Source: Candidatus Aenigmatarchaeota archaeon
GTDB lineage: Archaea > Aenigmatarchaeota > Aenigmatarchaeia > PWEA01 > B50-G16
Assembly: GCA_003663345.1 (NCBI GenBank)
Contig: QMZU01000015.1
Location: 1 to 10,487 of the forward strand
Direction of reading: 5' to 3'
Length of the DNA stretch: 10,487 bases
A program made the position numbers and the translations under genes. Below the pieces are notes generated by a model. That model had not been told where the DNA came from. It saw nothing but the letters and a program-made list of their open reading frames with translations, and did no database searches. Positions 3,266-10,271 of this stretch are shown here, piece by piece; the first letter of the stretch is position 1; every line of letters begins with the position of its first letter.

Positions 3266-3273
3266 TTTATAAG
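3266..3273 (+). promoter_or_regulatory. TATA box of the nrdR-nrdJ operon
   Basis: TTTATAAG lies in otherwise non-coding DNA, with transcription expected to begin about 25 bases downstream, near 3295-3300. That places the start inside the first NrdR operator and leaves a leader of roughly 55-60 bases before nrdR. The position is inferred from the archaeal promoter spacing rule. Confidence 0.6.
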
Positions 3274-3288
3274 TGAGATGGGCTAAAA

Positions 3289-3304
3289 ACACTATATATT
3301 GTGG
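3289..3304 (+). promoter_or_regulatory. NrdR box 1
   Basis: ACACTATATATTGTGG closely follows the bacterial NrdR-box pattern (ACA, a TATATA core, TGT). It is an interrupted palindrome, ACA-C-TATATA-T-TGT. It overlaps the predicted transcription start, so a bound repressor would block initiation. The gene directly downstream encodes NrdR itself. Confidence 0.85.
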
Positions 3305-3320: not shown

Positions 3321-3336
3321 CCACTATATATTGTAT
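3321..3336 (+). promoter_or_regulatory. NrdR box 2
   Basis: CCACTATATATTGTAT repeats a 13-base core of box 1 (CACTATATATTGT) without change. Its offset from box 1 is exactly 32 bases, close to three helical turns. Paired boxes with this spacing are the known NrdR operator layout in bacteria, where the protein binds both sites on one face of the helix. It lies in the leader, 20 bases before the nrdR start. Confidence 0.85.
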
Positions 3337-3355: not shown

Positions 3356-3808
3356 ATGCGCTGTCCTTACTGTAATTTCGAGGAGACCAGAGTCATAGAT
3401 ACCAGGGAGAGTGGAGAATGCACAAGAAGGAGAAGGGAATGTTTGGAATGCGGGAGACGTTTCACAACCTATGAGAGGTTCGAGCTTCTGAATCTCACTG
3501 TTCTGAAAAAGAATGGGAGCCGGGAGCAGTTCGATAGGAACAAAGTTAAAAGTGGTATACTCAAAGCTGTGGAGAAGAGACCGATCACAGAGGAGCAGGT
3601 GGATTTGATCGTTGACAGGATTGAGAATGAGTTGAGAGGAATGGGTTCTGAGGAGATCGAGAGTAAAGTTATAGGAGAGCTTGTGATGAGGGAGTTGAGG
3701 AAAATCGATCCTGTAGCGTACTTGAGGTTCGCTTCTGTTTACCGGCAGTTCAGTGATATAACATCCTTCGAGAAAGAATTGAAGAACTTAAAGGAGGAAA
3801 AATTATGA
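3356..3808 (+). CDS. nrdR: Transcriptional repressor NrdR
   Basis: A nucleotide-sensing repressor of ribonucleotide reductase genes. The 150-residue product has an N-terminal zinc ribbon (MRCPYC, with C3, C6, C29, C32) in an arginine-rich DNA-binding segment, then an ATP-cone domain (about residues 46-136) that binds ATP/dATP. Length and order match bacterial NrdR. The start is set at the ATG giving MRCPYC, the usual N-terminus; the ATG at 3350 is possible, and longer versions would read through the operator region. The stop overlaps the nrdJ start (ATGA, 3805-3808), implying coupled translation. Two NrdR boxes upstream indicate autoregulation of the whole operon. NrdR is near-universal in bacteria but patchy in archaea, so an ancient transfer is possible. 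Confidence 0.95.
   Translation: MRCPYCNFEETRVIDTRESGECTRRRRECLECGRRFTTYERFELLNLTVLKKNGSREQFDRNKVKSGILKAVEKRPITEEQVDLIVDRIENELRGMGSEEIESKVIGELVMRELRKIDPVAYLRFASVYRQFSDITSFEKELKNLKEEKL
3793..3797 (+). promoter_or_regulatory. Shine-Dalgarno site of nrdJ
   Basis: GGAGG inside the end of nrdR lies 7 bases before the nrdJ ATG at 3805. It supports that start and independent ribosome loading on a gene that overlaps its neighbour by 4 bases. Confidence 0.8.
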
Positions 3809-6800
3809 ATCTAACTGAGAACGCTCTTAAGGTTCTTGAGAAAAGATATCTGAGAAGGGATAAGGATGGAAAAATTATAGAAAAACCCGAGGAGCTCTTC
3901 AGGAGGGTTGCAAAAGCCATTGCAAAGGCAGACGAGCTTTACGGTGAAGACCCAAAAGTCAGTGAGAAGAAATTCTATGAAATGATGACCAACCTTGAGT
4001 TCCTACCGAACTCGCCGACGCTCATGAATGCCGGCACAGAACTTGGACAGCTATCAGCGTGTTTTGTCTTACCTGTGGATGACTCCATGGAAGGTATATT
4101 CGATGCTCTCAAGAATACCGCCTTGATACACAAGAGTGGTGGTGGAACCGGTTTCTCATTCTCCCGCCTCAGGCCAAAGGGTGATATAGTGAAGAGCACG
4201 GGAGGTGTTGCTTCAGGACCACTCTCATTTATGCAGACCTTCAACACAGCCACCGAAACCATAAAGCAGGGTGGAAAGAGAAGGGGCGCGAACATGGGGA
4301 TACTGAGAGTGGACCATCCTGACATAATAGAGTTCATAAAATCAAAAGAGGAGGAAGGGGTTCTGAACAACTTCAACATTTCGGTTGCGATAACGGATAA
4401 ATTCATGGAGGCGCTCGAAAAGGATGAGGAGTACGACCTTGTAAATCCTAGAACAAAAGAGGTTGTAAGGAGGTTGAGGGCAAGGGATGTTTTTGATCTC
4501 ATAACGAAGATGGCTTGGAAGAACGGTGAGCCTGGAATAATTTTCATAGACAGGATAAATGAGGACAATCCAACACCTCATATAGGGGAGATTGAATCAA
4601 CAAACCCCTGCGTGACCGGAGATACGCTCCTGCCAACAGAGGCAGGGTTGGTTCCGATAAAGGAGCTGTTTGAAAAGAATCCCACAACACTCTCCCTGCC
4701 GATAGCGGTTGATGGTCGTTCCGTTGGGGTGGAAGGTATTCAGAAGGCACTTCCGACCAAGTATCTCTTCACCGGAGTAAAGCCTGTCTACCGTCTCCTC
4801 ACAAAAGAGGGTTATGAGATAAAGGTCACTGATAATCATATGTTCCTGACGCCTGATGGATGGAAAGCTCTGAAGGAGTTAAAAGAAGGAGATTATGTCT
4901 GCATACAGATGGATGGTATGTTTTCGGAGAAACGGGAGTTGCCAGATATAGAATGTATTAGGAAGCTGAACAAAAAATACAGGAAGGATTTGAATCTTCC
5001 TGAAGAGTGGGGCGAGGACCTAGGGTTCGTGCTCGGGCTCCTGATAGGTGATGGGTGGTTGAGAGAGGACAGGATCGGATTCACATTCTCTTCCGAAGAG
5101 ACCGAACTTATGGAAAGGGTAAGGTCAATAATCTCGGTGTGGTATGGTGATGTCAAACCTGTGAGAAGGGAGAACGGTGTTTACCACCTTTCATATCATG
5201 CAAGGGGTTTTGTTGAGTTCTTCAAGATACTTGGTGTTGGAGAATGGAAATCTCATGAAAAGAGGGTACCGTGGAGTGTACTGAGAGCACCCGAGGACGC
5301 GGTCCGTGGTTTCCTCAGGGGTTTGTTCACAGCAGACGGAAGCGTCCAGGGTACTCTGAAGAAGGGAAGGTCTATCAGATTGTCATCAACCTCTCTGGGA
5401 TTGCTCAAAGATGTTCAATTGCTTCTCCTTAACTTCGGAATCAAGTCGAAGATATATCAGAGGAGAAAGAGGGAGCAGAAAAACTTCCGATATGTCACAA
5501 GAGATGGTGAGGAGAGGGAGTATGAAGGAAGACTCTTTCATGAACTTGTGGTGTCACGTGACGGTATGTTGAAATTCATAGAGAGAATTGGTCTGGAGCC
5601 AAGAAATATGGAGAGGTTCAAGGAATCAGAACGGGTTTACAGGGACAGGTTCTACGCAAGGATTGAAAGGATTGAATACATTGGTGAAGAGAGGGTATAT
5701 GATCTCACGGAGCCGAGAACCCGTTCCTTTATAGGGAACGGATTTATTCTTCACAACTGCGGAGAACAGCCACTGCTCCCCTACGAATCCTGCAATCTCG
5801 GTTCTGTAAACCTTTCAAAGGTTGTGAAGGATGGAAAAATAGACTGGGAGAAGCTTGAGAGGATAGTCAGAGATTCTGTCCATTTCCTTGATAATGTCAT
5901 AGATGTGAACAAGTATCCAATACCTGAGATAGATGAGATGACCAAAGCTAATAGAAAGATTGGACTCGGTGTTATGGGTTTCGCCGACATGCTGATACAG
6001 TTGGGAATTCCTTACAACAGCGAGGAGGCTGTGAAGAAGGCGGAGGAGGTTATGAAGTTCATTCAGGAAAAGGGCAAGGAGATGTCAGAGGAGCTGGCGA
6101 AGAGAAGAGGGAACTTCCCGAACTATGAAGGAAGTATCTATGATGGAAAGAGGATGATGAGGAACGCGACCGTGACCACAATAGCACCCACCGGAACTAT
6201 ATCGATTATAGCCGGGACATCCAGCGGTATTGAACCCCTCTTTGCGATATCATACGTAAGGAACGTTGGTGAGAGTCTAGGGACAGAGCTGGTGGAGGTG
6301 AACCCGTTCTTTGAAAAGATGTGTAAAGAGGAAGGAATATATTCAGAGGAACTAATGAGAAAGGTCGCATCCACCACGAGCATACAGGATATGGAGGAAA
6401 TACCCGAGAGAATAAGGAGGCTATTCATCACAGCTCATGATGTGACACCCGAACAGCACATAAGGATACAGGCAGCATTCCAGAAGTACACTGATAATGC
6501 CGTTTCTAAGACAATCAACTTTCCGAACAGCGCAACTGTAGATGACGTTAGAGAGGCATACCTACTCGCCTACAAACTCGGATGCAAGGGCGTGACCGTT
6601 TACAGGGACGGCAGCAGGGAGGTTCAGGTCATAACAACCGTCAAGAGAAAGACCCTCAGACCCAGACCAAGGCCCAAGACTATAAAGGGTGCAACACAGG
6701 AGATAAGGACAGGATGCGGTGACCTTTATGTCACGATAAATGAGGATGAAAATGGGTTGTTTGAGTTATTCGCACAGATGGGCAAGTCAGGTGGTTGCAT

Positions 6801-7155
6801 CGCTTCGTTCACCGAGGCGGTTGCCCGTCTGATATCCCTTTCGCTCCGCTCAGGAATAGATCCGAATGAGATAAGGAAACAGCTGGCGGGGATAAGGTGT
6901 CCGAGACCTTCCTGGGAAAATGGGACACCGATACAATCCTGCGCTGATGCAATAGAGAAGGCAATGGCCAGGTACATGCGCGGGGAGGCCACGACCACAC
7001 AGGCGAAGGTGGAGAGTTTCATCAAAAAAGATGAGGGAAATGAAGCGATAATAAAGAAAGGTATATCGCCTGAATGTCCGGAATGTGGTGAGATGCTTGA
7101 GTTCTCGGAAGGGTGTGTTGTCTGCAGGGCATGTGGATACTCGGAGTGTGGTTAG
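3805..7155 (+). CDS. nrdJ: Adenosylcobalamin-dependent ribonucleotide reductase (class II), intein-containing precursor
   Basis: Reduces ribonucleotides to deoxyribonucleotides using a thiyl radical made from adenosylcobalamin, without needing oxygen. The precursor has 1116 residues; removing the intein (269-651) leaves 733. The first extein carries the reducing cysteine C86 (QLSACFVLP) and the Gly-rich HKSGGGTGFSF. After the intein come C652-G-E654, the radical cysteine and catalytic glutamate, and C663 in YESCNLG. The 11-residue distance from C652 to C663 equals that between C322 and C333 in the Thermotoga maritima enzyme. APTGTISIIAGTSSG (about 795-810) is the phosphate loop. A TSCPD-like domain (about 955-1060) and a cysteine-rich tail (C1091, C1094, C1104, C1107, C1110, C1115) end the protein; the last CGYSECG probably shuttles electrons to the active site. 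No N-terminal ATP-cone is present, so overall-activity control is not built into the enzyme. It is followed with no gap by the adenosyltransferase gene. Confidence 0.96.
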   Translation: MNLTENALKVLEKRYLRRDKDGKIIEKPEELFRRVAKAIAKADELYGEDPKVSEKKFYEMMTNLEFLPNSPTLMNAGTELGQLSACFVLPVDDSMEGIFDALKNTALIHKSGGGTGFSFSRLRPKGDIVKSTGGVASGPLSFMQTFNTATETIKQGGKRRGANMGILRVDHPDIIEFIKSKEEEGVLNNFNISVAITDKFMEALEKDEEYDLVNPRTKEVVRRLRARDVFDLITKMAWKNGEPGIIFIDRINEDNPTPHIGEIESTNPCVTGDTLLPTEAGLVPIKELFEKNPTTLSLPIAVDGRSVGVEGIQKALPTKYLFTGVKPVYRLLTKEGYEIKVTDNHMFLTPDGWKALKELKEGDYVCIQMDGMFSEKRELPDIECIRKLNKKYRKDLNLPEEWGEDLGFVLGLLIGDGWLREDRIGFTFSSEETELMERVRSIISVWYGDVKPVRRENGVYHLSYHARGFVEFFKILGVGEWKSHEKRVPWSVLRAPEDAVRGFLRGLFTADGSVQGTLKKGRSIRLSSTSLGLLKDVQLLLLNFGIKSKIYQRRKREQKNFRYVTRDGEEREYEGRLFHELVVSRDGMLKFIERIGLEPRNMERFKESERVYRDRFYARIERIEYIGEERVYDLTEPRTRSFIGNGFILHNCGEQPLLPYESCNLGSVNLSKVVKDGKIDWEKLERIVRDSVHFLDNVIDVNKYPIPEIDEMTKANRKIGLGVMGFADMLIQLGIPYNSEEAVKKAEEVMKFIQEKGKEMSEELAKRRGNFPNYEGSIYDGKRMMRNATVTTIAPTGTISIIAGTSSGIEPLFAISYVRNVGESLGTELVEVNPFFEKMCKEEGIYSEELMRKVASTTSIQDMEEIPERIRRLFITAHDVTPEQHIRIQAAFQKYTDNAVSKTINFPNSATVDDVREAYLLAYKLGCKGVTVYRDGSREVQVITTVKRKTLRPRPRPKTIKGATQEIRTGCGDLYVTINEDENGLFELFAQMGKSGGCIASFTEAVARLISLSLRSGIDPNEIRKQLAGIRCPRPSWENGTPIQSCADAIEKAMARYMRGEATTTQAKVESFIKKDEGNEAIIKKGISPECPECGEMLEFSEGCVVCRACGYSECG
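4609..5757 (+). mobile_element. Intein with LAGLIDADG homing endonuclease, inserted in nrdJ
   Basis: In-frame insert of 383 residues between extein ESTNP and CGEQP. Splicing elements are all present: C1 (CVTGDTLL, block A), TDNH with H77 (block B), VYDLTEP (block F, intein residues 363-369) and the terminal HN (382-383) followed by Cys+1. Two LAGLIDADG helices lie within: LGLLIGDGW with D148, and FLRGLFTADGSV with D243. Both acidic residues are kept, so the endonuclease may still cut. The +1 residue is the reductase's radical cysteine. The reading frame and base composition blend with the host gene. Archaeal class II reductases are well-known intein hosts (the RIR1 family), so the occurrence has precedent; which RIR1 insertion site this equals needs an alignment. 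Confidence 0.96.
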
Positions 7156-7650
7156 ATGATAATACTTTATTATGGTGATGGCAAGGGGAAGACCACAGCA
7201 TCCCTTGGAATTGCACTCAGAGCGGTAGGTCACGGGATGAAGGTCTCTGTTATTCAGTTCATGAAGGCGAGGCCAACCGGTGAGTACTTTGCTCAGGAGT
7301 TCATAGACGGGCTGAGTATCCGCCAGTTCGGAAGAGATGTTTTCGTGGATGAGCCGATAAAAGATGATTTCGAACTGGCTCAGAAGGCGCTGGAGTTCGC
7401 GAGAGATGAGATTCAAAAGAGGGATGTTGTTATACTCGATGAGGTCAATATCGCACTCAGTAAAGGTCTGTTGAAGAAGGATGAAGTGCTTGGTCTTCTC
7501 GACTCCGTTCCGGATGGGAAACATGTTGTTCTTACAGGAAGGAACCCACCGGATTATCTCATCAAAAAGGCTGATCTGGTGACAGAGATGAGGGAGGTGA
7601 AGCACCCTTACAGGAAGGGTGTTAGCGCTGTGAAGGGTATAGATTGGTGA
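7156..7650 (+). CDS. cobO: Cob(I)alamin (corrinoid) adenosyltransferase, CobA/BtuR type
   Basis: Transfers the adenosyl group of ATP to cob(I)alamin, giving adenosylcobalamin, the cofactor of the reductase encoded just upstream. The 164-residue protein starts with the altered P-loop GDGKGKTT (residues 7-14) that this family uses to bind ATP in reverse orientation. VVILDEVN (91-98), VVLTGRNPP (124-132) and the tail TEMREVKHPYRKGVSAVKGIDW region (143-164) are family hallmarks. It is slightly shorter than bacterial CobA because the N-terminal extension is missing. Its ATG immediately follows the nrdJ TAG, and it shares that transcript. The substrate must be Co(I), so a strong reductant is needed; the three redox genes that follow are candidates. 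It could be called cobA or btuR in other systems. Confidence 0.93.
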   Translation: MIILYYGDGKGKTTASLGIALRAVGHGMKVSVIQFMKARPTGEYFAQEFIDGLSIRQFGRDVFVDEPIKDDFELAQKALEFARDEIQKRDVVILDEVNIALSKGLLKKDEVLGLLDSVPDGKHVVLTGRNPPDYLIKKADLVTEMREVKHPYRKGVSAVKGIDW

Positions 7651-7654
7651 TGAA

Positions 7655-7849
7655 ATGAAAATAAAGAAAGATATGTCGATAGGAGAGATCGTCGCGAGAT
7701 GGCCCGAGACGGTTGAGGTCTTTTTCAGGAATGGACTTCATTGTGTGGGGTGCCATATAGCCTCGTTCGAGACCTTGGAGGATGGAGCAAGAGCACATGG
7801 TATAGACCTCAAGAAGCTTCTGAAGGAGTTGAACGAAGCGGTGAAGTGA
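7655..7849 (+). CDS. DUF1858 domain protein with CxxC
   Basis: A 64-residue protein made up of one DUF1858 domain: the opening MSIGEIVARWPETVEVFFRNG pattern, then GLHCVGC with C30 and C33, then a helical end. This domain occurs alone or fused to redox and iron-sulfur proteins. Its biochemical role is not established; the CxxC could bind metal or act as a dithiol. The start lies 4 bases after the adenosyltransferase stop, preceded by GGTGAT as a plausible ribosome site. It ends one base before the FMN oxidoreductase gene, so the two are almost certainly co-translated. Its place in a ribonucleotide reductase operon suggests a thiol or electron-carrier task, but this is inference. Confidence 0.88.
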   Translation: MKIKKDMSIGEIVARWPETVEVFFRNGLHCVGCHIASFETLEDGARAHGIDLKKLLKELNEAVK

Positions 7850-7850
7850 G

Positions 7851-9122
7851 ATGTATCATAAGAATGCCGATAAGGCCACAGGAACCTCTTACTCCTTCCC
7901 GGAGCATGTTACACCGAGCGGTATGTGTTCCATATGCACCAAGTGCGGAAGATGTGAGATAGGTCTCAGAGCAAAGGAGGGTTTATCACCGTTTCCAAAA
8001 CCTTTCGGTGTTGCGCAGTTCGGCGCGGAGAAGAAGACGCCTGATATAAATGACCTGAACATCGTGCCAGAATTGTTCGGTGATGGCGTATTCTTTGGTG
8101 ATGTCTCTATCGAGACTACAATAGGTTCCTTCAGGGTCAGAGCACCTGTCAGTATAGCTGCGATGGGTTCGACCAAAGTTGCAAGTGTTCACGGAGAGGC
8201 TCTTTCAGAGGGTGCTGCAAGAGCCGGTATACCGATCGTGATAGGGGAGAACGTTCTGGTGACATACGGAGAGGAAGGTTTGAGAAAGAGGATAGAACCG
8301 TTTCTCAAAAATTATGATGGATATGGTGCTGTGCTGGTTCAGGGTAATGAACAGGAGCAGAAGATGGGTGTATTTGAGAGGGGTGTGAAGATGGGCGCTC
8401 ACGGTATAGAGATAAAGGTATCCCAGGGTGCGAAGCCAGGACTGGGTGGTGAGGTGGAGTTCCGGGGCGAGCACCTTGCAAAGAAGTATCAGAAGTATGG
8501 ATACAGGGTTCTGGAAATAGGAGAGGATGAGAATGGTAAGATTTACCAGAGGCATGCGCTACCTGGTTCGCTGTTTGAAGAGGAATTCGGAGAGAAGCTC
8601 AAGAAGTATTCCGAACTCGGTGTGCCTATATGGATCAAGGTTGCTGCTGGTTCAGGGCTTCTCAGGTTTCTGGAGTTCTTGAATGAGATGAAAAGAGATG
8701 GTGTTCCCATTGAGTGTGTCACCGTTGATGGTATGGGTGGAGGAACCGGAATGTCGCCGTGGGTTATTATGAACGAGATAGGACTCCATTCATCAAATAT
8801 TCTCCCTGCTCTCAGTGACCTTGATTTTGACGTATTGGTGGCAGGTGGGTACAATACCGGTGTTGATATTGCCAAGGCCATGATGCTCGGAGCCGATGGT
8901 GTTGCAATTGGAAGGGCCTTCCTTGTGGCGGCAAATGTCAGTGAGAACGGAATTGTGAATTACGTGAAGAGCTTGAAGGGGGACCTCCAGATGGTCTGTG
9001 CAACCCAGAGGGTCAAGAGTGTGAAAGATTTAAAAGGAAGGAGAGAGAGATTATATCCACTGACAAAGGAAGCGGCAGAGGTGTTTGGCCTCTCTCAGGA
9101 CCCCAGAAAAGTTTTGAGGTGA
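7851..9122 (+). CDS. Glutamate-synthase-like FMN oxidoreductase with N-terminal four-cysteine motif
   Basis: A 423-residue protein with the FMN-binding TIM-barrel domain of the glutamate synthase large subunit. Signals are AAMGSTKVA, the SQGAKPGLGG segment (about residues 194-203), DGMGGGTGMSP, LVAGGYNTG and MLGADGVAIGRAFL. No glutamine amidotransferase domain is present. The cysteine triad that holds the 3Fe-4S cluster in true glutamate synthases is not visible after the barrel. Instead the N-terminus has CSICTKCGRC (C26, C29, C32, C35), which could carry an iron-sulfur cluster. The substrate is therefore uncertain; making glutamate from ammonia-derived glutamine is not supported by the local genes. 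It starts one base after the DUF1858 gene and ends 4 bases before the ferredoxin, a plausible electron partner. Confidence 0.85.
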   Translation: MYHKNADKATGTSYSFPEHVTPSGMCSICTKCGRCEIGLRAKEGLSPFPKPFGVAQFGAEKKTPDINDLNIVPELFGDGVFFGDVSIETTIGSFRVRAPVSIAAMGSTKVASVHGEALSEGAARAGIPIVIGENVLVTYGEEGLRKRIEPFLKNYDGYGAVLVQGNEQEQKMGVFERGVKMGAHGIEIKVSQGAKPGLGGEVEFRGEHLAKKYQKYGYRVLEIGEDENGKIYQRHALPGSLFEEEFGEKLKKYSELGVPIWIKVAAGSGLLRFLEFLNEMKRDGVPIECVTVDGMGGGTGMSPWVIMNEIGLHSSNILPALSDLDFDVLVAGGYNTGVDIAKAMMLGADGVAIGRAFLVAANVSENGIVNYVKSLKGDLQMVCATQRVKSVKDLKGRRERLYPLTKEAAEVFGLSQDPRKVLR

Positions 9123-9126
9123 AGAA

Positions 9127-9309
9127 ATGAAGGTAACGGTTGACCATGAAGCGTGTATAGGATGTGGAAGCTGTGTTGCTCTCTGTCCTGAGGTCTTCGA
9201 GCTCGGGGAGGATGGAAAATCGCATGTGAAGAATCCTGATGCATGCGACCAGTGCAACTGTCAGGAGGCGGCCGATGTTTGTCCGGTGGGGGCAATCACT
9301 CTGGAGTGA
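9127..9309 (+). CDS. Ferredoxin, single [4Fe-4S] type
   Basis: A 60-residue small electron carrier resembling the Pyrococcus-type ferredoxins (opening KVTVDHEACIGCGSC). C10, C13, C16 and C52 (in CPVGAI) are the expected cluster ligands. C20 and a cysteine near 43-45 match the positions of the disulfide pair in the Pyrococcus protein. Position 13 is Cys, where P. furiosus ferredoxin has Asp, so a full four-cysteine cluster is expected. The segment CDQCNC (40-45) adds more cysteines than usual. GAGGTGA (9115-9121) overlapping the previous stop is a good ribosome site for the ATG at 9127. It is the last gene of the nrdR operon and a likely partner of the FMN protein. Confidence 0.92.
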   Translation: MKVTVDHEACIGCGSCVALCPEVFELGEDGKSHVKNPDACDQCNCQEAADVCPVGAITLE

Positions 9310-9370
9310 TTATCCACTCCACCACAAATATTTTTTTATATTTTAATGAGAAGATAAGGTTGGGTTGGTT
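9310..9370 (+). promoter_or_regulatory. Operon terminator and promoter for the thioredoxin-like gene
   Basis: Sixty-one non-coding bases. A run of seven T (9331-9337) would end the ferredoxin transcript. The overlapping TTTTTATATTTT (9333-9344) can act as a TATA element about 30 bases before the next ATG, giving a leader of only a few bases. No NrdR box is present here. Confidence 0.5.
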
Positions 9371-9634
9371 ATGATAACTCTGAAGGACTTCTATGCTGAC
9401 TGGTGTGCTCCCTGTAAGAAGCAGGAGAAGGTTATAAAGAAGGTTCTGAAGGAGTTCAACGGTCATATAAACCTTGAGAAAATAAATGTCGAGGAGCGCC
9501 CTGAGGAGGCGTCAAAATACTCGGTTCTGAGCCTACCCACACTTGTTATTGAAAAAGAAGGAAAGATATGTGAGAAACTTATCGGTTTTACGAGCGCGGA
9601 GAAATTGAAAGAGATTCTGAACAAGACTTTTTAA
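9371..9634 (+). CDS. Small thioredoxin-like protein (WCAPC)
   Basis: An 87-residue thioredoxin fold with the active site WCAPC (residues 11-15) and the cis-proline loop SLPTL (P56). It is shorter than standard thioredoxins because the first strand and helix are largely missing, as in the small archaeal glutaredoxin/thioredoxin-like proteins. It should act as a cytoplasmic dithiol reductant. Being next to the class II reductase operon makes it a candidate electron donor to NrdJ, though it has its own promoter. The ATG at 9371 is preferred over a TTG two codons upstream. No thioredoxin reductase is in the window. Confidence 0.88.
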   Translation: MITLKDFYADWCAPCKKQEKVIKKVLKEFNGHINLEKINVEERPEEASKYSVLSLPTLVIEKEGKICEKLIGFTSAEKLKEILNKTF

Positions 9635-9656: not shown

Positions 9657-10271
9657 ATGCTTGGTTATCTTGAGGTCAATAGACTTCTCAGGAAGCATGG
9701 AATACCGAAACCAAAGGAGTTTGTGATGAGAAAATCCTCTGATCTTCCAAGTATAGGATTTCCTGTTGTTATGAAATTGCTCTCACCGGATGTTATTCAC
9801 AAAACGGATGTGGGTGGTGTGGTCACCGGAATAGATTCCAGAAAAAAGGTCATTGAAACATTCAGGTCCTTCAGGGAACTCACCAAGAGAAGGAATTTCA
9901 GGTTCAATGGTGTGCTGGTTCAGGAGGAGCTAAAGGGTGTGGAGACTATAGTGGGTATCAAGAAGGATCCGCAGTTTGGTCATGTTCTGATGTTCGGGCT
10001 TGGTGGAATATTTGTAGAGATAATGGAGGATGTTAGTCTCAGAATCTGTCCAGTTAGGAAGAGCGAGATACGTGAGATGATTAGAGAGATAAAGGGTTAT
10101 CCTCTTCTAAAGGGGTTCCGTGGTTCTGAGCCGGTTGATGAGAAGAAATTGGTGGATGTTATGAAGAAGGTTTCAGTGATGGCTGTTGAGGAGGATTTGA
10201 AGGAAATGGACATAAATCCGCTGATATGTAACTCAAAAGGTTGCTGGGCTGCTGATGTTAGAATAATGTAA
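9657..10271 (+). CDS. acdB: Acyl-CoA synthetase (ADP-forming), beta subunit (ATP-grasp)
   Basis: The ATP-grasp subunit of the archaeal enzyme that turns acetyl-CoA or another acyl-CoA, ADP and phosphate into the free acid, CoA and ATP. The 204-residue protein has the family motifs in order: GIPKPKE (15-21), PVVMKLLSPDVIHKTDVGGV (36-55), LVQEELKG (87-94), DPQFGHVLMFGLGG with FVEI (104-122), and EMDINPLI near the end (183-190). Length is close to the ~230 residues of separate beta subunits. The matching alpha subunit, which carries the CoA-binding domain and the catalytic histidine, is not in the window. ATG 9657 is preferred over GTG 9636 because MLGYLEVNRLL matches the usual N-terminus and sits 25 bases after a TATA-like element. 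Substrate preference cannot be judged. The stop codon directly abuts the tRNA-Ala gene. Confidence 0.87.
   Translation: MLGYLEVNRLLRKHGIPKPKEFVMRKSSDLPSIGFPVVMKLLSPDVIHKTDVGGVVTGIDSRKKVIETFRSFRELTKRRNFRFNGVLVQEELKGVETIVGIKKDPQFGHVLMFGLGGIFVEIMEDVSLRICPVRKSEIREMIREIKGYPLLKGFRGSEPVDEKKLVDVMKKVSVMAVEEDLKEMDINPLICNSKGCWAADVRIM

Follow-up and report, generated by a model that had tools for sequence, protein, structure and literature searches.

A predicted NrdR-controlled archaeal operon joining a class II ribonucleotide reductase, an adenosyltransferase and a candidate ferredoxin-driven reductant supply

The nearest worked-out analogue of the electron supply that we propose below is a chain in Methanosarcina barkeri, in which, as Wei et al. 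reportedly described in 2015, electrons pass from ferredoxin to a disulfide reductase of the ferredoxin:thioredoxin reductase (FTR) type, on to NrdH and from there to the class III ribonucleotide reductase (RNR) NrdD. The system considered here lies in the window, by which we mean the whole analysed stretch of 10,487 nucleotides from a Candidatus Aenigmatarchaeota archaeon (contig QMZU01000015.1, our contig C15). It comprises six forward-strand genes, namely nrdR, nrdJ, cobO and the genes for a DUF1858 protein, an FMN-barrel protein and a ferredoxin, behind paired NrdR boxes. As in M. barkeri, a disulfide reductase and a small redoxin would carry electrons from ferredoxin to an RNR. However, an FMN barrel, a DUF1858 protein and the class II enzyme NrdJ would take the places of the FTR-type reductase, the thioredoxin-fold NrdH and the class III NrdD.

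The nrdRJ operons of Streptomyces likewise have nrdR first and nrdJ second, with boxes about three helical turns apart, whereas the host of the window is archaeal and adenosyltransferase and redox genes have been added; few archaea are described as having NrdR (PMC9110341). On the side of the reductase, a C-terminal six-cysteine array is tied to terminal reduction and is carried by ~70% of non-monomeric class II sequences. When such a cysteine-rich NrdJ was tested, two thioredoxins and a glutaredoxin of the same organism failed, and the native donor was not found (PMC5704485). Among titles and abstract openings of the open-licence PubMed Central literature, we found none describing the set nrdR-nrdJ-cobO-DUF1858-FMN-ferredoxin. 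The six genes are separated by gaps of -4, 0, 4, 1 and 4 bases, and the features of the operon and its promoter are as follows.

3266..3273, + strand: TATA-box-like element TTTATAAG, read from the sequence
3289..3304, + strand: NrdR box 1, ACACTATATATTGTGG; an equal pair in 0 of 200 shuffles
3321..3336, + strand: NrdR box 2, CCACTATATATTGTAT, 32 bp after box 1; from the core and pair scans
3356..3808, + strand: nrdR, Zn-ribbon and ATP-cone repressor; TIGR00244 at 192.5 bits (cut-off 124.65), PF22811 and PF03477
3805..7155, + strand: nrdJ, class II RNR with an intein and a C-terminal six-cysteine domain; PRK08665 at 1207.4 bits
7156..7650, + strand: cobO/btuR, CobA-type ATP:corrinoid adenosyltransferase; PF02572 at 8.4e-56
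7655..7849, + strand: DUF1858/TIGR03980 redox-disulfide protein, 64 amino acids, CVGC motif; TIGR03980 at 100 bits (cut-off 44.95)
7851..9122, + strand: FMN TIM-barrel protein, 423 amino acids, with an invariant N-terminal CxxC-x5-C; PF01645 and PF01070
9127..9309, + strand: small single-cluster [4Fe-4S] ferredoxin, 60 amino acids; Fer4_15 at 4.8e-14

Gene order, gene identities, the paired NrdR boxes and the complete six-cysteine tail of NrdJ are observed, while all function of the set is what we infer from them. We tentatively read the locus as an NrdR-repressed operon for B12-dependent deoxynucleotide synthesis that may also encode the finisher of the cofactor and an electron supply to the reductase. 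Reduced ferredoxin would hand its electrons to the Fe-S/FMN protein, which would reduce the CxxC disulfide of the DUF1858 protein and/or of a thioredoxin encoded downstream; one or both of these would then re-reduce the C-terminal cysteine pair of NrdJ. The net result would be a ferredoxin:disulfide reductase system on an FMN barrel, in place of an NADPH-thioredoxin reductase or an FTR-type enzyme, and the locus would be a class II operon under NrdR control that brings its own, possibly ferredoxin-driven, supply of reductant. We favour this reading because neither a thioredoxin reductase nor an FTR was found in the source genome, because relatives of the FMN protein are fused to the FTR catalytic domain or adjoin Fe-S electron-input subunits, because DUF1858-ferredoxin pairs occur in RNR loci and DUF1858 has a CxxU form, and because NrdJ has the six-cysteine tail, for which no native donor was found in the one enzyme tested.

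The promoter carries the exact 13-base NrdR core CACTATATATTGT at 3290 and 3322, two occurrences against 0.01 expected from dinucleotide shuffles, and the best box pair (3289-3304 with 3321-3336) was not equalled in any of 200 base-composition shuffles. In the rest of the genome, the 12-base core (at most one mismatch) was found twice, each time solitary and no more often than the reversed-pattern control. By archaeal promoter rules, transcription would start at ~3295, inside box 1; a scan for sigma-70 promoters, a type wrong for archaea, and for terminators gave counts near chance. As in known NrdR regulons, the promoter has a pair of palindromic boxes spaced by about three turns of the helix, and the NrdR protein has both Zn-ribbon (PF22811) and ATP-cone (PF03477). 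The box-pair scan at other nrdR-type promoters of phylum relatives gave pairs that no shuffle equalled in 16 of 17 cases (1 of 200 for L239), with best pairs spaced 31-32 bp. At L213, which has nrdJ without nrdR, 172 of 200 shuffles were as good, and at four iscS controls 83-185 of 200. The GC content per gene is even (0.41-0.54) and gives no sign of a chimera. The packing of the six genes and their predicted NrdR control, as claimed by the original prediction, are borne out, as is the functional set that it saw in the first three genes.

This core set is normal in the phylum. In our comparison set of 156 genomes, source genome included, 78 contain an NrdR-type match at E <= 1e-10, 68 of them scoring above the curated cut-off; for NrdJ the figures are 82 at E <= 1e-30 and 79 above the cut-off. 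The nrdJ survey took in 80 further loci, drawn from 78 of the other 81 genomes with NrdJ (G057, G134 and G145 left out). Partner genes were counted if they lay within 5 kb on the same strand, which gave nrdR at 32 loci and cobO at 17, with one more of each on the opposite strand. Together with the widespread paired boxes, these counts point to nrdR-nrdJ-cobO under NrdR boxes as an ordinary arrangement. The PF02572 match of CobO spans residues 1-164, the whole protein; against the two NCBIfam equivalog/subfamily models the protein scores below the cut-offs. The nrdJ gene is interrupted by a LAGLIDADG intein (Pfam; ends placed by eye at ~4612-5757), and several nrdJ frames of the phylum are very long, up to ~2100 amino acids, which suggests repeated intein insertion. 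The NrdJ tail holds the six cysteines of the cysteine-rich class II enzymes, CPECGEMLEFSEGCVVCRACGYSEC, with the pattern CxxC-x9-CxxCxxC-x4-C; residue numbers published for such an NrdJ give CxxC-x9-CxxCxxC-x5-C (PMC5704485). Across the 80 loci, nrdR stands by 31 of 59 NrdJs with a six-cysteine tail and by 1 of 21 without.

A possible variant of this control was seen in three other loci, L214:6897-11234 (-), L216:4614-6941 (+) and L217:4243-5715 (+), where the NrdR Zn-ribbon (PF22811) is fused to the ATP-cone of a class III NrdD. Paired NrdR boxes lie upstream and no separate nrdR was seen there; such a fused reductase might repress its own gene. Nine phylum genomes have NrdR matches below the cut-off in frames of ~500 amino acids or more, a length fitting such fusions, and all three that were scanned are fused. 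No reference to the fusion turned up in word searches of the available text of PMC9110341, PMC12051234 and PMC11226230.

In the FMN protein, Cys26, Cys29 and Cys35 are invariant in 41 of 41 rows of alignment A1 and 10 of 10 rows of alignment A2. The structure model (pLDDT 86.5, best match type 2 IPP isomerase) is used here only to conclude that the protein is an FMN-type barrel. The FTR catalytic domain (PF02943) is annotated in 7 of 120 FMN homologues among the matches listed (1677 in all), and a re-scan of two of the seven (P0033 and P0094) confirmed the fusion, N-terminal in both. Kin of the FMN protein are thus joined to a [4Fe-4S]/disulfide module, the same pair of features as in FTR. In the window, by contrast, PF02943 is absent from the FMN protein, which is flanked by the CxxC protein and the [4Fe-4S] ferredoxin, and cluster and disulfide would sit on these separate small proteins.

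Distant relatives (29-36% identity; 80 loci, L027-L106, among the matches listed) add a second line of evidence. Those of ~36% identity stand beside NuoE/NuoF/HydA-N-like subunits in 34 of the 80 loci, or, where the upstream sequence was long enough, in 31 of 53, as counted by BLAST to the proteins of L073, the locus that was itself typed. Fe-S proteins are therefore the probable electron source of the family. In L042, L073 and others, relatives of ~525 amino acids cluster with NuoE-, NuoF/HydB- and HydA-N-like subunits in what looks like a complex of the BfuABC type with a GltS-like FMN subunit. These neighbours resemble the electron-bifurcating BfuABC family (PMC9304861), in whose available main text a word search for glutamate, GltB and GltA gave 0 occurrences. 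The window differs in that neither BfuB nor BfuC was found among its scanned proteins, a search limited to the window, with the rest of the genome not searched.

The DUF1858 protein combines a match to TIGR03980, which NCBIfam names 'hybrid cluster protein-associated redox disulfide domain', with a CxxC motif (CVGC). The domain is also known as a CxxU selenoprotein (PMC9312934), which makes the CxxC a likely redox site. We tallied 52 of the 57 DUF1858 places that lie outside the window, 21 as long proteins and 31 as single-domain loci; L275, L280, L282 and L283 (no BLAST match at the cut-off) and a second place in G057 were left out. The long proteins, of 179-224 amino acids and mostly of families f6 and f28, are those at L249-L261, L264-L267, L272, L276, L279 and L285. 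Among the 31 single-domain loci, a small ferredoxin (within 400 bases) was found at 12, RNR genes (same strand, within 8 kb) at 11, iscS/iscU (within 4 kb) at 21, and both RNR and isc genes at 7. RNR loci make up 9 of the 12 ferredoxin-adjacent loci (eight of family f18, one of f29, mostly class III). The order nrdR-nrdD-nrdG-DUF1858-ferredoxin occurs in G130, G131 and G147 (f18), and the ferredoxin precedes DUF1858 in G115 (f29). Paired NrdR boxes were present at all six of these nine loci whose nrdR or nrdR-nrdD promoter was scanned (L210, L211, L212, L214, L215 and L216). For the NrdD of L211, assigned to class III, the top solved match is that of Thermotoga maritima (137.7 bits), next to the class III chain 8p23 (136).

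Overall, the RNR genes at 10 of the 11 RNR-linked DUF1858 loci are class III, nrdD and/or nrdG, although at L218 and L273 an nrdG-like piece is all that was seen. The eleventh, G128, has nrdJ-cobO ~4 kb off, beyond iscS-iscU-gdh, and is the one among the 80 other nrdJ loci with DUF1858. Class III RNRs (nrdD-nrdG) use no cobalamin. A role in B12 metabolism therefore cannot be the common reason for the pairing, and of the two roles suggested for the redox genes by the original prediction, thiol reduction is favoured over reduction of cob(II)alamin. DUF1858-like proteins of 35-43% identity are also present in seven unannotated 'Bacteriophage sp.' records from human faeces (MT836873 and six others).

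Two further features follow the ferredoxin gene.

9327..9345, + strand: T-rich stretch between ferredoxin and thioredoxin, a possible archaeal terminator and/or promoter; read from the sequence
9371..9634, + strand: thioredoxin (WCAPC), 61 bp downstream of the ferredoxin; PF00085 at 8.4e-19

This thioredoxin is perhaps part of the same functional set. In the source genome (951 kb, 183 contigs, 74% complete), neither a TIGR01292-like thioredoxin reductase (E <= 0.001) nor the FTR catalytic subunit PF02943 was found. Across the phylum, a TIGR01292-like match is present in 130 of 156 genomes (E <= 1e-20; 29 over the curated cut-off) and the FTR catalytic subunit in 17. Thioredoxin reductase stands near nrdJ on the same strand in 3 of the 80 loci, and on the opposite strand in 3 more. 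Genome G056 (L245) has the order nrdJ-cobO-thioredoxin reductase-thioredoxin-like, G046 nrdJ-thioredoxin reductase-thioredoxin-like and G107 thioredoxin reductase-glutaredoxin-nrdJ, the last with a reductase below the TIGR01292 cut-off. These loci indicate that reductant genes can occupy the slot held in the window by DUF1858-FMN-ferredoxin and then thioredoxin. The G056 cluster resembles the window in placing them behind nrdJ-cobO, but it has an NADPH-type reductase in place of the DUF1858-FMN-ferredoxin genes, no nrdR in front and an NrdJ without the six-cysteine tail. Elsewhere, at L296:11724-13007 (-) and L331:2532-3812 (+), a glutaredoxin-like CPYC stretch is apparently fused to the N-terminus of a thioredoxin reductase, as judged from the first residues and BLAST.

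Several findings weigh against an electron supply to NrdJ by these genes. The complete arrangement was seen once. The close FMN family (profile E <= 1e-60) is present in 7 of the 156 genomes, and a search at E <= 1e-4 of the 9-16 kb of DNA fetched around each of the six copies besides the window's gave no nrdR, nrdJ, nrdD, nrdG, cobO, DUF1858, isc or small ferredoxin gene. At the 80 other nrdJ loci the close family is absent, the single match (L345, E 9e-5) being distant. FMN-positive genomes are no richer in NrdJ (4/7 versus 78/149, Fisher p = 1.0) or DUF1858 (2/7 versus 54/149, p = 1.0), and the link to an absence of thioredoxin reductase is weak (3/7 versus 23/149, p = 0.09). As the source genome is 74% complete, the missing reductases may simply be unsequenced. 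The partner genes also tend towards another type of NrdJ: the G056 and G046 enzymes, with thioredoxin reductase behind them, and that of G128 lack the six-cysteine tail, and same-strand thioredoxin reductase is found at 1 of 59 six-cysteine loci (G107) versus 2 of 21 tail-less ones, small ferredoxin at 2 of 59 versus 6 of 21. That reductant genes stand mostly by tail-less NrdJs lowers the odds of the proposal. In family f21 a lone ferredoxin gene follows nrdJ-cobO (G091, G087) or nrdJ (G089, G080) and could serve CobO or something else. Finally, a single family, f18, supplies 9 of the 11 RNR-linked DUF1858 loci, DUF1858 more often neighbours iscS/iscU (21/31) than RNR genes (11/31), and scans of five of the 21 long DUF1858 proteins showed a fusion with an IscA-type Fe-S_biosyn domain in all five.

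The last two findings also speak for an iron-sulphur module, in which DUF1858 and ferredoxin would be helpers of Fe-S assembly or repair that have entered RNR operons; in this operon they would perhaps act on the Fe-S sites of the ferredoxin itself and of the FMN protein. The isc neighbours include 7 of the 11 RNR-linked loci, and the pair directly follows iscU in G051, with the opposite order in G041. Further, DUF1858 forms the C-terminal domain of SufT in 4 proteins (PMC4982691). Yet no isc gene is present among the window proteins scanned, and the operon carries NrdR boxes. Neither NrdJ nor CobO requires an Fe-S cluster. The pairs of G147 and G115 stand behind nrdR-nrdD-nrdG with no isc gene found, though only ~2.7 and ~1.8 kb of contig lie beyond. 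On balance, we regard such a module as somewhat unlikely.

About as doubtful, in our judgement, is a biosynthetic or catabolic oxidoreductase role for the FMN protein, which would then only share the promoter and have the ferredoxin as its partner. The other six copies of the FMN gene lie dispersed amid housekeeping genes, one of them beside the indolepyruvate:ferredoxin oxidoreductase IorAB, and the bacterial relatives adjoin the BfuABC-like module. On the other hand, the gaps of 1 and 4 bases suggest that the FMN gene belongs to the predicted NrdR operon, and the FTRc fusions point to disulfide chemistry. Within the phylum, the trio treated as a unit by the original prediction holds for the DUF1858-ferredoxin pair, with its preference for RNR loci, and not for the FMN protein, whose other copies have no RNR, cobO, DUF1858 or small ferredoxin gene in the DNA fetched around them. 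A co-occurrence of the trio with nrdJ or the adenosyltransferase was likewise not found, as the FMN family is uncorrelated with NrdJ and no cobO lies in the fetched DNA of its other loci. An alpha-hydroxy-acid oxidase was considered as well. In alpha-hydroxy-acid FMN dehydrogenases, the catalytic histidine lies within NHGG; aligned to flavocytochrome b2, this position of the FMN protein reads DGfGGG, and the candidate was rejected.

A cob(II)alamin reductase, in which the ferredoxin or the FMN protein would reduce CobO-bound Co(II) and so allow adenosylcobalamin to be formed on the spot, appears unlikely to a greater degree. Adenosyltransferases of the CobA type depend on a one-electron donor, flavodoxin for example, and in the window cobO is adjacent. 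The order nrdJ-cobO-ferredoxin without DUF1858 or FMN protein in G091 and G087 still fits this role, and a small ferredoxin lies near nrdJ on the same strand in 8 of the 80 loci, four of them with cobO. Set against this are the B12-free class III enzymes of 10 of the 11 RNR-linked DUF1858 loci, the near absence of DUF1858 (1/80) and absence of the close FMN family from other nrdJ loci, and the lack of cobO in the DNA fetched around all six other FMN loci.

A glutamate synthase, as the PF01645 match might imply, is highly improbable and was rejected: the 423 residues hold no amidotransferase domain (a search for a separate amidotransferase gene was not made), the GXGXG domain, present in 8 of 156 phylum genomes, was found neither in the source genome nor in any FMN-positive genome, and the [3Fe-4S] motif of glutamate synthase, CxxNxCPVG, is absent from alignments A1 and A2. 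The names that the sources give, 'alpha-hydroxy-acid oxidizing protein' and 'glutamate synthase', therefore say little about function.

Returning to the ferredoxin-driven supply of electrons to NrdJ, a bolder form of it, which we consider doubtful, would make the FMN protein a third type of disulfide reductase, neither NADPH-flavin nor FTR. A ferredoxin-fed, GltS-like FMN barrel with an N-terminal Fe-S site would reduce the DUF1858 redoxin, itself the missing physiological donor of the cysteine-rich NrdJ, and under NrdR DUF1858 would have the same role towards the class III RNRs of sister archaea. By joining a six-cysteine NrdJ with a ferredoxin-flavin-disulfide set, the operon names concrete candidates for the open question of the donor. 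The DUF1858-ferredoxin pair behind class III operons, in turn, offers a testable role for DUF1858, to which Pfam still assigns no function.

Beside the thioredoxin gene, at 9657-10271, the window encodes a short protein that matches part of the ADP-forming acyl-CoA synthetase models NF045493/NF045494, and a similar acyl-CoA-synthetase-like protein is found at L309 together with thioredoxin, thioredoxin reductase and a glutamate-dehydrogenase-like gene.

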